From Acidaminococcus fermentans DSM 20731 (GTDB taxonomy: Bacteria; Bacillota; Negativicutes; Acidaminococcales; Acidaminococcaceae), in NCBI RefSeq assembly GCF_000025305.1, contig NC_013740.1, positions 1,550,001-1,614,000 of the forward strand: a DNA stretch of 64,000 nt, written 5' to 3'. The stretch's first letter is position 1. Every line of letters starts with the position of its first letter. Below, one piece after another: positions 40,435-45,719 of this stretch. A program made the translations under genes and the position numbers. The notes beneath the pieces are model-generated. The model was given only the letters and a program-made list of their open reading frames with translations, ran no database searches and was not told the DNA's origin.

Positions 40435-40587
40435 GGTCATTCCCCTTTGTCAAATAAAAATAACACTCTGATATATTATCATATCACAAATGGACGGGAG
40501 ATGCACGGGAAAAGGGGGCTGCTGCTCATGCAACAGTCCCCCGTCAGCGGTCAGCGTTCAGCGGCTGATGGAAGCCAAACGCAGCCC

Positions 40588-42396
40588 TTACCCCCTCATC
40601 TCCCGGAGCAGCTCCCGGATGTTCTTCTGCTGGTTCTCTTCGGTTACGGTTTCGGCGAAGGGGATCACGTTGGCGGCAGGGAGGATGCTGGTGCCCGGGA
40701 GCCGGCAGTTGTAGAAGCTTTCCAGTTCCTGCTCCCCATTTGTGAGCCCGTAGAGGATCTCCAGGCCCCGGACCGCCGGCTCCACCTTCTTCCCCTCTTC
40801 CTCGTAGGGCACCGGGCTGAGGGACAGCAGGTACTTGTAGCTCATTTCCGGCATCAGTTCCTGGAGTACCTTTTTCCGGTAGCTGTACTTGGCGTCCAGG
40901 ATCAGGTAGGTTTCCCGGTTCCCGGATTTCCACTTCAGCAGATAGTCCGGGGTGTAGTAATGGCCCTCTTCCAGGGCCTTGAAGGCGTAGGTGGTGTTCC
41001 GGTACAGGTGGATGCCGCTGGCCCCCTCTTCCGGGTGGTCGGTGATCACCGGCTGGAAGTACAGGGTCAGCTCTTCCCCGCCCTGGCGCAGCCGGTACAC
41101 GTTCTGGTATCCGCTGGTGTCGTACAGGTGCCGGTTCCCCAGGCTGTACTCCTGGTGCCGGCCCTCTTCCAGCACGAACCCCTCCTGCCGGAACAGGTGG
41201 AGCAGCCGGGCCAGGCAGTAGATCTCGAACACAAAGGTGTTTTCGTACAGGTTCAGGAGCATCCGCTCCCGGGGGAAGTGCCGGCAGCCGGTCTGGTACC
41301 ACCGGTGGATGCACAGATAGATCCGGTAATACTGGGGCACCCGGAAAAAGGGCTCCGTGGGCCTTGGCAGATGGGAGGCGTCCAGAAGGGTCACCGGCAG
41401 GATCTGCCGGTAGCTGACAAACATTTCCTGGAGCCGCTCCTCCACTTCCTCACACCGTTCCAGGAAGCTCCGGAGCATATGGGCGGCATTTTCGTACAGC
41501 ACCTGGGAGGACAGCCGGTACCCTTCCCGGTCCTGGTCCGGCAGATCCATTTCCCGGAGCAGGGTCCGGATCTCCTTCCCCTCCTCCCCGATGTCGTAGA
41601 GCATCCGCTGGAGGAAGCTGACCACCACCTGGTTTTCGTACACGTCCCGGCTCATTTTGTCCTGGGTACTCAGGAGTTTTTCCGGCAGCACCGTCCGGTT
41701 CCCCACCGGGATCCCGAAGGGGGCTTCCTTCAGATGTTCCGGATGCCGGACCAGGTACTGGAGGGTGTGGGGGCTTACGGTCTGGACCCGTTCCGTCCAG
41801 TCCACCACTTCCGCGCTCTCCAGGGTGTGCCGGCAGTTGGCCTTGAAATACCCGTAGTTTTCTTCATACACCTGGAGGGTCTCCTCCGCCAGGGTCAGCT
41901 GGGAGAGGAAATCCTGGAACCCGTCCCGGTCCGGACCGGCAGTCCCCGGCCCTTTTTCCCGGAGCAGAGGCCCCTGGTGGGCGTAGATGAATTCCACCAT
42001 GGCCTTCAGGTTTTCCTGCTGGGGGGAGGGCTGGATCAGTACCGGCAGCAGGTCCGTGTACCACATCTGCTGGCTGCCGTCCTCCAGCCGGAGGGTGAGT
42101 TCCAGCTCCACCAGCCCCATGTGATAGGCAAAGATATTGTAGGGAAACAGAACCATGTGACGGCGGCTGTCGAACAGGCTGTTCAGCGGCTTCCCGTTCA
42201 GGGCGGCCGCCGCCTCCTGGATGCCGGTCCACTGGGCGGGCAGTTCCAGGTCGTAATGGAGATTTTCCCGTACCCCCTGGCGGCCGGCTGCGGCCAGCAC
42301 CCGTTCCGCCGAATAGGGACGGGCCTCCCGGGTCACCGGCAGGGTCAGGGTTTCTCCGTTCTGTTCCCGGAGACGGATGGTCGGTTCCATATCCAT
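40588..42396 (-). CDS. McrC-like / DUF2357-type PD-(D/E)XK nuclease protein
   Basis: A 602-residue protein that forms a pair with the AAA+ gene upstream. The N-terminal 250 residues are mixed alpha/beta with no named domain (PYNIFAYHMGLVELELTLRLEDG). The middle has a long helical region (about 270-390). The C-terminal third contains a nuclease core: YTPDYLLKW (Asp484) and YLILDAKYSYRKK (Asp501 and Lys503), spaced as in PD-(D/E)XK enzymes of the McrC and DUF2357 groups. The catalytic residues appear intact. Its ATG follows the ATPase stop codon with 1 nt between, so the two are coupled. A defence or DNA-processing nuclease driven by the ATPase is inferred. Confidence 0.78.
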   Translation of the reverse strand: MDMEPTIRLREQNGETLTLPVTREARPYSAERVLAAAGRQGVRENLHYDLELPAQWTGIQEAAAALNGKPLNSLFDSRRHMVLFPYNIFAYHMGLVELELTLRLEDGSQQMWYTDLLPVLIQPSPQQENLKAMVEFIYAHQGPLLREKGPGTAGPDRDGFQDFLSQLTLAEETLQVYEENYGYFKANCRHTLESAEVVDWTERVQTVSPHTLQYLVRHPEHLKEAPFGIPVGNRTVLPEKLLSTQDKMSRDVYENQVVVSFLQRMLYDIGEEGKEIRTLLREMDLPDQDREGYRLSSQVLYENAAHMLRSFLERCEEVEERLQEMFVSYRQILPVTLLDASHLPRPTEPFFRVPQYYRIYLCIHRWYQTGCRHFPRERMLLNLYENTFVFEIYCLARLLHLFRQEGFVLEEGRHQEYSLGNRHLYDTSGYQNVYRLRQGGEELTLYFQPVITDHPEEGASGIHLYRNTTYAFKALEEGHYYTPDYLLKWKSGNRETYLILDAKYSYRKKVLQELMPEMSYKYLLSLSPVPYEEEGKKVEPAVRGLEILYGLTNGEQELESFYNCRLPGTSILPAANVIPFAETVTEENQQKNIRELLREMRG

Positions 42397-42397
42397 C

Positions 42398-45300
42398 TTA
42401 ATGGAAGAACTGGAAGAACTTCATCCGGCGGTTCCCCCACTGGAGGATCTGGTCCAGGAGAGCCGCACTCTGGACCATCCGGTTGCCTGCACAGTCGTCC
42501 CGGAACTGGATCAGCCATTTTTCGTATTCCGCCCCGTTGCCGCTGAGTTTCGGCAGGATCTTCTGGGCCACCGCCCAGTCCAGGGCGATGATCCCGGGCC
42601 GGATGTGGTCTTCCGATTCCATGAGCCGGGAAGCCACCTTCCAGTACCGGCGGATGGCCAGTTCGATCCGCATGCTCAGGTAGATGTTCTGTTCCGCCAG
42701 ACGGGCCCGGATCCGGTCGTATACATTCTGTTCCACCCCCGTCAGCTGGCAGCTTTCCCGGTGGGCCACGTCAAAGAGGCTCTTCAGCTGGCTCCAGGAC
42801 AGCAGCTGGATCTCGCCCTGGCTGAGCCCCGGCTGGATCTCCGGCACCACATCGCTGTGGGGCAGGGTGACGATCCAGGCCCGGTCGATGAGCCGGGGAG
42901 ACAGGGTCTCGGTGGTGTGGTCGTTGTTGATGGTGGCCAGGAAATGGAGGGTCTCCGGCAGCTGGAACCGGTGGTTGTGGCCCAGGCTCAGGGTGTGCTC
43001 CCCATCCCAGTCATCGCACACGTTCATGAAGTCCGCCCAGTAGTATTCCATGGGGGACAGATTGGCTTCGTCCAGCAGGATGTAATAGGGATACTGGCGG
43101 ACGCCGTGGGTCTTTTCCCAGTCCAGCAGCCGCAGCCCGTCATACACCTCCCGGTTGCTTTCCTCGAAGGTCCGGGTAAGGGGGTTGTAGTACCCGATCA
43201 GGTCCCGTTTGGAGGTCCAGCCCCGTTCCACGGACACGGGCACATACCGGTTGGCGGTGCTCATAATGTCCTGGGGGCCGGTTTTCCGGTCGAACTGGGT
43301 CAGCCCCAGCACCTTCCCCAGCAGGTTGCAGAAAGAGGTCTTGCCGCTGCCCGGGGCCCCGGAGAATACCGTCAGGAACCCCTGGTGAGTGCAGATCAGC
43401 AGGTTCAGGATCAGGTTCCGGCTGTACTGGGGCCGTTCCTTCTGGATGGCGGTGACCAGGTAGTCCAGGGCCTTCCGGCTGCTGGTGCCGGAAGCGGGCA
43501 GGCCGTTGATCCGTTCCCCCAGTTCTTCCAGGGACCGGGGCTGGGCCTGCCGGATCTTCCGCTGCTCCGCCTGGGCCAGGGCCTTCCGGGTGCGGGAAGG
43601 CAGCCCTTTGGCACTGCCCAGTTCCTGCCAGATATCCGGATACCGTTCCAGCAGCCGGGTGATGAAATCCTGGCTCCACCGTTTGTCCCCATTGTCCAGC
43701 AGCTGCCGGTAAAGGAAAGCGCTTACCTGGGCATAGTCTTCCCGGGCAGCCTCATCCCCTTCCAGGATGGCTTCCAGCCGTTCCAGCCGTCCTTTCCGGA
43801 TTCCCGAGGGCAGGTCGGTGAACAGCCGGGTCTTTTCCCGTTCCAGGAAGCTTTTCAGCACCGCCGGCTTCACCAGGTCCCCTTCCTCCACCTGGACGCT
43901 TTTCACCAGGCTCCGGACCAGCACTTCGTCGGGCACCCGGTCCACCAGCTGGGAAGGAGACCCGGGTACCCGGTGCCAGAACACCCATTCCGTCTTTTCC
44001 TGCCGGCTGGCCCAGGTTCCTTCCGCCGGGAAGAAGGTCACTTTCTGCCAGGCTTCCGGGGGGCAGGCGGTGAGCAGGTACTGGTTTTCCGGCACATCGC
44101 TCTGGATGAAGCAGCCGAAGCGGATGTTCTTCTGGACCTCATAGGGCCCGGCGATCCAGCCATCCCGGAGCTGGAGCAGCAGCTGTTTCCCGGCAAAGAG
44201 CCCCGGTTCCTGGAGCCGCAGCACCGTATCCATAGAAAGGGGATCCAAGAGACGGCTTTCCGGCACCAGTTCGTAGATCCCCTCCTCATAGGGGAACCGG
44301 AGACGGCCGTTTTTCAGGGCATCGATGCAGAACACCCGGTAGGCGGTGGACCGGAGATTCCCCTGGCTGTCCTTGTTTTCCGCCAGGGAATGGGGTCCCA
44401 GGTCCAGGAACACAATGTCGTTTTCGTGGAAATGTTCCTCCATGTATTTCTGGTCGCTGTGGAGACTGTACCACAGGTTGATGTTCTTGTACTGTTCCGC
44501 CCGGGGGATCAGGCCGTCGATCTCTTCCGGGGTCAGGGCCCGGTAGGTCCCCTGTTCCCACACCCCCATGGGGGTGAAGTTGTAGAAGCTGTCCACAATG
44601 TTGATCCGGCCCACATAGGTGGTGAGAGGTTCCTCTTCCGGTTCTTCCGGAGCCGGTTCCCCCGGGGCGGCTTCCCGGGTTTCCGGTTTCTCCGGTACCG
44701 GCCGGGCCGGTGCTTCCGGAGCAGGGGCCGGTGCAGCAGGCTCCGCAGGTGCTTCCGGGGCCGGGGGTTCCGCCTCTTTCGGGGCTTTGGGCGTTTCCGC
44801 CTCCTTCAGGGCTTCCGGCTGCGCTTCTTCTTCCGGAGCCGGTTCCGGGGCGGCGTTCTTCTTTCCCCGTCCGTTCCGGTTCCGGGCCCCCTTGTCCCGG
44901 TTTCGGCCGTTCCGGGCTTTCCGGGGCTGTTCCGCCGGGGCCTCTTCCCGGCTCTCTTCCGGTTCTCCCCCGGATTCTTTGTCCTCTTTGGGTTCTTTGG
45001 TGTTTTGGGCTTCCCGGGCTTCCTTTTCCTTTTTCTTCAGCAGGGATTCCGCCTGGTGCTGCTTTCCTTCCGGATAGGGCATTTCCATCACTTCCAGTAC
45101 CATCCACAGGGCATTGGGCCGGAAGGGCTGCTTTTTCTTCAGGCAGATCCGTTCATATTTCAGCAGCAGGTCCGCCATGGCTTCCGGAGTATATTTGCAG
45201 ACCTTTTTGATGGCTTCCATGTCCTTCCCCACAAGCTGCTCCAGCACCTTGCAGACCTGGCCCAGGAAGGCCTGGTAGGTAAAGAGGGCAATGTCCCGGT

Positions 45301-45568
45301 AGATTTTATCCCCTTCCTTGTACAGTTCCACGGCAAAGGGAACGATTTTCTCCCGGACCCGGGGAGACCGCTTGTCCAGTTTCCCCAGCTGGATGATGTA
45401 TTTCCGGTATTTCCGGCTGTTCCCCTTCATGGGTTTCAGCAGCACTTCCACCGGGGTGGTGTCATAGATCATCTGCAGGTACCGGTCGCTGATCTGGGTC
45501 AGCCTTTTTTCAGAAATGGGCAGGGAGGATGCAGAAATATGGGATTTCTGGTTTTTCGGTGATTTCAT
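42398..45568 (-). CDS. McrB-like AAA+ ATPase with long acidic linker
   Basis: A 1,056-residue protein. Residues 1-175 are helical and basic (KRLTQISDRYLQMIYDTTP). Residues about 178-313 are a low-complexity Glu/Pro/Ala/Lys linker. Residues 315-600 are beta-rich and unassigned. The C-terminal third is an AAA+ domain: Walker A GAPGSGKTS (737-745), Walker B YILLDEAN (829-836), sensor segment ATINNDHTTETLSPRLIDRAW (878-898) split over the usual sensor-1 Asn and arginine-finger positions. It resembles the McrB order, but the GTP-selective MNTAD is replaced by INNDH. The ATG at 45568 has GGAGG 6 nt upstream; a longer frame upstream is unlikely. It is coupled to the nuclease gene downstream. Confidence 0.8.
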   Translation of the reverse strand: MKSPKNQKSHISASSLPISEKRLTQISDRYLQMIYDTTPVEVLLKPMKGNSRKYRKYIIQLGKLDKRSPRVREKIVPFAVELYKEGDKIYRDIALFTYQAFLGQVCKVLEQLVGKDMEAIKKVCKYTPEAMADLLLKYERICLKKKQPFRPNALWMVLEVMEMPYPEGKQHQAESLLKKKEKEAREAQNTKEPKEDKESGGEPEESREEAPAEQPRKARNGRNRDKGARNRNGRGKKNAAPEPAPEEEAQPEALKEAETPKAPKEAEPPAPEAPAEPAAPAPAPEAPARPVPEKPETREAAPGEPAPEEPEEEPLTTYVGRINIVDSFYNFTPMGVWEQGTYRALTPEEIDGLIPRAEQYKNINLWYSLHSDQKYMEEHFHENDIVFLDLGPHSLAENKDSQGNLRSTAYRVFCIDALKNGRLRFPYEEGIYELVPESRLLDPLSMDTVLRLQEPGLFAGKQLLLQLRDGWIAGPYEVQKNIRFGCFIQSDVPENQYLLTACPPEAWQKVTFFPAEGTWASRQEKTEWVFWHRVPGSPSQLVDRVPDEVLVRSLVKSVQVEEGDLVKPAVLKSFLEREKTRLFTDLPSGIRKGRLERLEAILEGDEAAREDYAQVSAFLYRQLLDNGDKRWSQDFITRLLERYPDIWQELGSAKGLPSRTRKALAQAEQRKIRQAQPRSLEELGERINGLPASGTSSRKALDYLVTAIQKERPQYSRNLILNLLICTHQGFLTVFSGAPGSGKTSFCNLLGKVLGLTQFDRKTGPQDIMSTANRYVPVSVERGWTSKRDLIGYYNPLTRTFEESNREVYDGLRLLDWEKTHGVRQYPYYILLDEANLSPMEYYWADFMNVCDDWDGEHTLSLGHNHRFQLPETLHFLATINNDHTTETLSPRLIDRAWIVTLPHSDVVPEIQPGLSQGEIQLLSWSQLKSLFDVAHRESCQLTGVEQNVYDRIRARLAEQNIYLSMRIELAIRRYWKVASRLMESEDHIRPGIIALDWAVAQKILPKLSGNGAEYEKWLIQFRDDCAGNRMVQSAALLDQILQWGNRRMKFFQFFH

Positions 45569-45583
45569 GATGGCCTCCAAATA

Positions 45584-45611
45584 AAAATAAGATATAAGAG
45601 TACTTTGACAA
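45584..45611 (-). promoter_or_regulatory. possible promoter of the ATPase-nuclease module
   Basis: TTGTCA (complement of 45606-45611) and TATTTT (complement of 45584-45589) with 16-bp spacing in a strikingly AT-rich stretch, about 16 bp before the ATG. The -10 box is poor. Confidence 0.45.
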
Positions 45612-45719
45612 ATAAAGAAAAATAAAAAGAAAAGCCAACGCCTCTCCAAGCGCGGCTTTTCTTATTATACCCGTGAATATGGGGCGGGGTCAATGGATTT
45701 GCGCCGGACAATTGCCGCA

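Follow-up and report, generated by a model that had tools for sequence, protein, structure and literature searches.

A compact McrBC-type gene pair of the NxD branch in Acidaminococcus fermentans

The gene pair and its leader region

The window analysed here is a stretch of 64,000 nucleotides from the genome of Acidaminococcus fermentans DSM 20731 (G000:C1:1550001-1614000; genome length, 2,329,769 bases in a single contig). On its minus strand, a gene for a McrB-like AAA+ ATPase (42398..45568; 1,056 aa) is followed in tandem by a gene for a McrC-like nuclease (40588..42396; 602 aa) with a spacer of 1 nt (42397), and these CDS coordinates bear out the arrangement of the two proteins proposed in the initial annotation. 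The chromosomal neighbours of the pair in the window are housekeeping genes; judging by their sequences, we take a GGDEF gene to lie upstream of the pair, and metG and tatD to lie downstream. The GC content of the pair is 61.6% (58.8% for the window), and its base composition is near that of the host. Both genes are judged to be real on the basis of the recurrence of the pair in other Acidaminococcus genomes, with protein identities of 67–84%, and of the dN/dS values, which are 0.24–0.33 over the whole genes and 0.13–0.20 in the motor and the β-rich domain of the ATPase. The N-terminal domain of the ATPase evolves faster than these two domains (dN/dS, 0.34–0.57) and, as judged from this ratio, is translated and under purifying selection.

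The leader of the pair (45600..45693, minus strand) contains a promoter-like site (TTGACC-18-TATAAT, 11/12; 45664..45693), directly after the –10 box of which lies a terminator-like hairpin with a T-run (45615..45663), a candidate attenuator; a weaker promoter-like site (9/12; 45584..45611) is located beyond the hairpin. The –10 box and the hairpin are conserved in four species, and in all four carriers (the window, L061, L062, and L022) TATAAT is followed by the terminator-like hairpin and T-run within ~10 nt, each hairpin folding better than its shuffled sequences (z, –3.5 to –4.3). Although the genes upstream of the leader differ between the two sites, the leader is kept, which indicates that it belongs to the module. 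The promoter-hairpin combination was found in 3 of 62 cases in the wider family (one of them from Acidaminococcus), compared with 7 of the 504 upstream regions that served as controls, and is therefore specific to Acidaminococcus. Judging from its sequence, the hairpin may attenuate expression of the pair.

Domain architecture of the ATPase and the nuclease

The C-terminal part of the ATPase (residues 691–1056; 42401..43498, minus strand) is a McrB-like AAA+ motor containing a Walker A motif (GAPGSGKT, residues 737–744; 43337..43360), a Walker B motif (YILLDE, residues 829–834; 43067..43084), and a sensor segment, ATINNDHTTETLSPRLIDRA (residues 878–897), all of which were confirmed at the positions where the initial annotation had placed them. 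The last of these holds the McrB signature in a shortened form, NxD (N881-N882-D883; 42920..42928), so that the Nx(x)(x)D motif after Walker B, by which the McrBC superfamily is recognised, is present as N881-x-D883. Walker A, Walker B, the NxD sensor, and the conserved arginines are all intact, and the catalytic positions show little or no variation among 67 nuclease and 75 ATPase relatives; for the NxD signature, Asp883 is found in 75 of 75 and Asn881 in 73 of 75 ATPases. The spacing between Walker B and NxD is 48 residues, compared with up to 68 in other sampled NxD motors, showing that the helical insert of Type I-A is absent. The NxD form also occurs in a wider Bacillota set (GTVNMDETTH...), and belongs to a large branch of McrB, comprising CoCoNuTs and their relatives, that was defined by Bell et al. 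2024 (PMC11090510) and of which, according to that survey, no member had been characterised. The suggestion that INNDH is an odd motif pointing to an unusual nucleotide choice was discarded: it is a known NxD variant, in which both the sensor-1 Asn and the Asp are retained, and as a standard motif gives no ground for expecting a new nucleotide. In another Acidaminococcus genome, a second McrB-like gene with NxD was observed (L019; G004:C18); it is distant and belongs to the GTVNMDETT type.

The whole ATPase matched no Pfam family, and a search of its profile against the PDB returned mostly coiled coils and generic AAA+ proteins; a viral structure library likewise gave generic AAA+ matches. When the profile of 75 ATPase relatives was aligned directly with E. 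coli McrB, hhalign gave an E-value of 6.3e-9, and the modelled motor superposes on McrB (6ut6_A; Z-score, 14.1; 184 aligned residues; root-mean-squared deviation, 3.2), tied with AAA+ domains of RavA and dynein. This profile comparison identifies the ATPase as a remote homologue of McrB. The PADLOC candidate PDC-M26A also matches the ATPase (E, 6e-20; best stretch, residues 697–855), the likeness being confined to the motor part.

The part of the ATPase ahead of the motor (minus strand throughout) consists of a helical, basic domain (residues 1–190; 44999..45568) modelled with low confidence, a disordered linker of ~125 residues rich in Glu, Pro, Ala, and Lys (residues 191–315; 44624..44998), a β-rich domain (residues 316–545; 43934..44623), and a shortened middle region (residues 546–690; 43499..43933). 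The helical domain is confined to the Acidaminococcus lineage and one near relative (L065), in which a comparison of 26 sequences detected a homologue of residues 1–190 (E, 3.6e-10). In many other relatives, extensions that look unrelated occupy the same position, and it thus seems from the sequences that this N-terminal position is often swapped. The β-rich domain is family-wide and confidently modelled; it has no sequence match in Pfam or the PDB, and in the fold searches with the ATPase model the AAA+ domain takes up the lists of matches. Comparison with three approximate CSD queries gave no sequence support for a CSD identity, a negative result that carries little weight given these queries and fold lists. 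Neither the full-length ATPase nor its N-terminal part matched the DUF3578/ADAM methylcytosine reader in Pfam. The initial annotation had raised the possibility of a new target-recognition domain, which is partly upheld: the β-rich domain has no sequence match in Pfam or the PDB, although the survey by Bell et al. of the nearest class describes domains of this kind as CSD-like and YTH-like, and the N-terminal domain is specific to this lineage and L065.

In most relatives, a long coiled coil lies between the β-rich domain and the motor, and the family profile matches the coiled coils of ClpB and SMC proteins at this place. The middle region comprises 145 residues in the Acidaminococcus ATPases, as opposed to ~240–285 in most relatives; our home-made heuristic, backed by alignment length and by the model, in which a single helix of 39 residues is seen, detected no coiled coil in the Acidaminococcus ATPases. 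Since the nearest relatives (L064, L065, and L068) retain the coil, it has probably been lost in the Acidaminococcus lineage. In several extended relatives (L065, L100, L113, L122, and others), a Met preceded by a Shine-Dalgarno-like stretch is located where the β-rich domain begins; a stretch with at least five matching bases precedes 7 of 16 such junction Met codons and 63 of 1,264 internal ones, two of the loci being near-copies. The sequences of these relatives hint at a short isoform like McrB-S. The window ATPase has no junction Met preceded by such a stretch.

The nuclease (minus strand) is composed of an Ig-like β sandwich (residues 1–122; 42031..42396), a DUF2357 region forming the McrC stalk and helical bundle (residues 124–400; 41197..42027), and a PD-(D/E)xK core (residues 401–600; 40597..41196) with Asp484, Asp501, and Lys503, and with Glu391 just ahead of it. 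DUF2357, the N-terminal domain of McrC, scored above the curated Pfam cut-off. An AlphaFold2 model built from 67 relatives (mean pLDDT, 86.8) gave McrC chains from Thermococcus gammatolerans and E. coli as the top matches among solved structures (Z-score, ~11). It aligns with 6ut5_G over 140 residues (Z-score, 11.2; root-mean-squared deviation, 5.2) and with 6ut6_G over 282 residues (Z-score, 11.1; root-mean-squared deviation, 14.0), the large deviation in the latter meaning that the domains are placed differently; the best Foldseek match is likewise McrC (6hz4_M; E, 4.4e-7). The β sandwich has RhoGDI chains among its fold matches (Z-score, ~6), which tie with other Ig-like folds. Around the DAKY motif, the nuclease profile aligns with E. 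coli McrC with an E-value of 2.3e-4 and a probability of only 44.5; a profile search against the PDB gave no significant match, none was found among PADLOC models, and a TnsA-family search of the genome returned no match anywhere, controls included. The nuclease core assigned in the initial annotation stands, with Pro483-Asp484 and the DAK motif (501–503) in place; Glu391, Pro483, Asp484, Asp501, and Lys503 are identical in all 67 relatives.

Altogether, the layout of the McrBC superfamily is present, namely a gene for the motor and, directly after it, one for a nuclease with DUF2357 and a PD-(D/E)xK core. EcoKMcrBC from E. coli K-12 shares with the pair its gene order, an AAA+ motor, and a DUF2357/PD-(D/E)xK partner, McrC being a top fold match; it differs from the present pair in having NxxD in place of NxD and a DUF3578 methylcytosine reader, which is missing here, whereas the proteins of the pair are larger, with extra domains in both subunits. 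The Type I-C CoCoNuTs have in common with the pair the restriction to two genes and, together with Type I-B, an NxD motor lacking the insert of Type I-A, a β-rich domain ahead of the motor, and a nuclease with an Ig/RhoGDI-like N-terminal domain, DUF2357, and PD-(D/E)xK. According to Bell et al. 2024 (PMC11090510), the nucleases of Types I-B and I-C carry a RhoGDI-like N-terminal domain, and Type I has a CSD-like OB fold ahead of the motor, often accompanied by a YTH-like domain. The Acidaminococcus copies differ from Type I in lacking the coiled coil and in having the helical N-terminal domain on a disordered linker. In sequence features, the architecture is closest to Type I-C, a placement made by architecture. 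In Type I CoCoNuTs, a long coiled coil is either part of the motor protein or supplied by a separate CnuA protein. Here, no coil was detected by the heuristic, and no CnuA-like gene adjoins the pair; since the defining coiled coil was looked for and not found, we refrain from calling the pair a CoCoNuT in the strict sense. It is an NxD McrBC system, probably derived from Type I-like ancestors. The branch is already known from genomes; in the present version of it, the coiled coil is missing and a front end has been added.

Distribution, linkage, and transfer

A scan of the genome collection yielded 80 loci, mostly in Clostridia, many of them from gut or rumen samples, and also in Sutterellaceae, some Bacteroidota, and Gammaproteobacteria. 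The nuclease gene directly follows the ATPase gene in nearly all of them, and the 61 pairs measured are without exception adjacent (gap, –73 to +67 nt). Sequence distances among the ATPases and those among the nucleases are strongly correlated (Mantel r, 0.956), a value matched by none of 2,000 permutations; the ATPase and the nuclease co-evolve and stay linked. The identification of a diverged McrBC system in the initial annotation is hence supported by fold, profile, and co-evolution evidence alike.

Within Acidaminococcus, the pair occurs in four of nine genomes (one per species), and it was found in none of the 54 other genomes of the order. It occupies at least two sites: a common one beside metG in G000 and G004, and a location elsewhere, adjoining a lipoprotein gene, in G003 and G008; in the latter two genomes, as in G001 and G005, which are without the pair, metG neighbours rsmI. 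Similarity of the window to other Acidaminococcus rsmI-metG regions ends ~80 bases upstream of metG (~40517–40590), and homologues of rsmI and tmk were found nowhere in the window. The boundary at metG may represent an insertion or, because rsmI is absent from the window, a larger rearrangement, and perhaps not a simple insertion.

In the AAA+ tree, the Acidaminococcus sequences stand apart from those of other Negativicutes and fall within Lachnospiraceae (support, 100/94 with Pseudobutyrivibrio and 100/98 with two more), from which it follows that the pair arrived by horizontal transfer; this acquisition probably predates the divergence of the carrier species. The earlier statement that the pair was not recently acquired thus holds as far as its host-like GC content is concerned, but the tree points to transfer from Lachnospiraceae-like donors. 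More distant relatives are found on plasmids. In Acinetobacter baumannii, an enzyme of the MvaI/BcnI type is encoded nearby, together with a cytosine methyltransferase and Vsr; in Klebsiella, an integrase and a TIR gene adjoin the relative, and in Citrobacter an integrase lies near it. Relatives also occur on eight IMG/VR contigs. The A. baumannii plasmid pA52-1 (L141) and one IMG/VR contig (L180), both with a family member, are each exactly 110,713 bases long; this agreement suggests that a phage-plasmid bears the pair next to a cluster of restriction genes.

To look for the defence islands raised in the initial annotation, the neighbours of relatives were tallied with PADLOC and Pfam. They are mixed, with restriction, AIPR/AbiU, YhcG, and recombinase genes scattered among them; the tallies had no control set, and enrichment is not claimed. 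No repeated defence partner was found in either tally. In 12 loci, nearly all labelled Ruminococcus (L092, L094, L096, L097, L101, L102, L103, L106, L108, L111, L114, and L116), the same three genes come after the pair, encoding a small membrane protein that looks rhomboid-like by eye, a YceG_bac protein, and TelA, and homologues of ispD and ispF lie upstream in several of them.

Possible function of the pair

The patchy presence of the pair, its differing sites, its horizontal transfer, and the occurrence of relatives on mobile elements fit a defence system and not a housekeeping function. We favour, with a probability of about 0.72, the reading that the two genes encode a defence system of the McrBC type (Type IV restriction-like) that belongs to the NxD branch and is nearest in architecture to Type I CoCoNuTs. 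Counting against this reading are the housekeeping genes around the pair in the window, the mixed neighbours of its relatives, and the fixed chromosomal context in the 12 Ruminococcus loci. Its family membership and intact active sites are established at the level of sequence and predicted structure, and from there we infer the role in defence. The initial annotation had named a single housekeeping position together with near-universal presence and no defence association, or else loss of the catalytic site, as evidence against such a role; what we found is a patchy distribution, differing sites, and an intact core.

If the pair works like the McrBC complexes of solved structure, the ATPase would form a hexamer, the DUF2357 stalk of the nuclease would engage the ring and stimulate NTP hydrolysis via the NxD aspartate, and hydrolysis would power translocation on nucleic acid up to the point of cleavage by the nuclease. 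In what is the most tentative step of this scheme, the β-rich domain (residues 316–545), aided by the helical N-terminal domain on its flexible linker, would read an invader-derived signal; this might be modified or foreign nucleic acid, possibly RNA, with the domain replacing the 5-methylcytosine reader of E. coli McrB. An attenuator in the leader probably keeps expression low. As a speculative and rather improbable extension of the defence reading, this NxD McrBC lineage of CoCoNuT-like ancestry could have discarded its coil and come to use the often-swapped, tethered N-terminal domain for sensing or recruitment, with the promoter-proximal terminator gating expression until infection, perhaps, relieves it.

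RNA targeting has been predicted for CoCoNuTs (Bell et al. 2024; PMC11090510), and it is possible, if doubtful, that the pair follows that description, sensing RNA or a translation component via CSD-like and YTH-like domains, with abortive infection as the outcome and RNA, not invader DNA, as the main target. The NxD branch, the RhoGDI-like nuclease domain, and the pre-motor β-rich domain fit Type I as described, but sequence comparison lends the β-rich domain no CSD support. Furthermore, neither HEPN nor any other RNase gene lies beside the pair, and the PD-(D/E)xK site is intact in all 67 nucleases; for these two reasons, cleavage of DNA appears likelier than cleavage of RNA.

A stress-response or housekeeping complex, as proposed for the Pseudo-Type I-B CoCoNuTs of Bacillus, would accord with the housekeeping neighbours in the window and with the fixed rhomboid, YceG_bac, and TelA context of the 12 Ruminococcus loci, but is improbable for a pair that five of the nine members of the genus lack, as do the 54 remaining genomes of the order, and that has differing sites, a history of horizontal transfer, and relatives on mobile elements. 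That the pair is a decaying, non-working remnant, to which the loss of the coiled coil and a dN/dS exceeding that of metG might point, is very improbable, given that the reading frames are open in all four Acidaminococcus carriers, every catalytic residue is kept, and dN/dS stays low in the motor and the β-rich domain. The pair is a compact two-gene version from a gut anaerobe, with an intact nuclease and neither accessory genes nor a coiled coil, and as such provides a minimal test case suited to the question of DNA versus RNA as the target and to the role of the swapped N-terminal modules. Its architecture further suggests that at least one lineage can do without the coiled coil.
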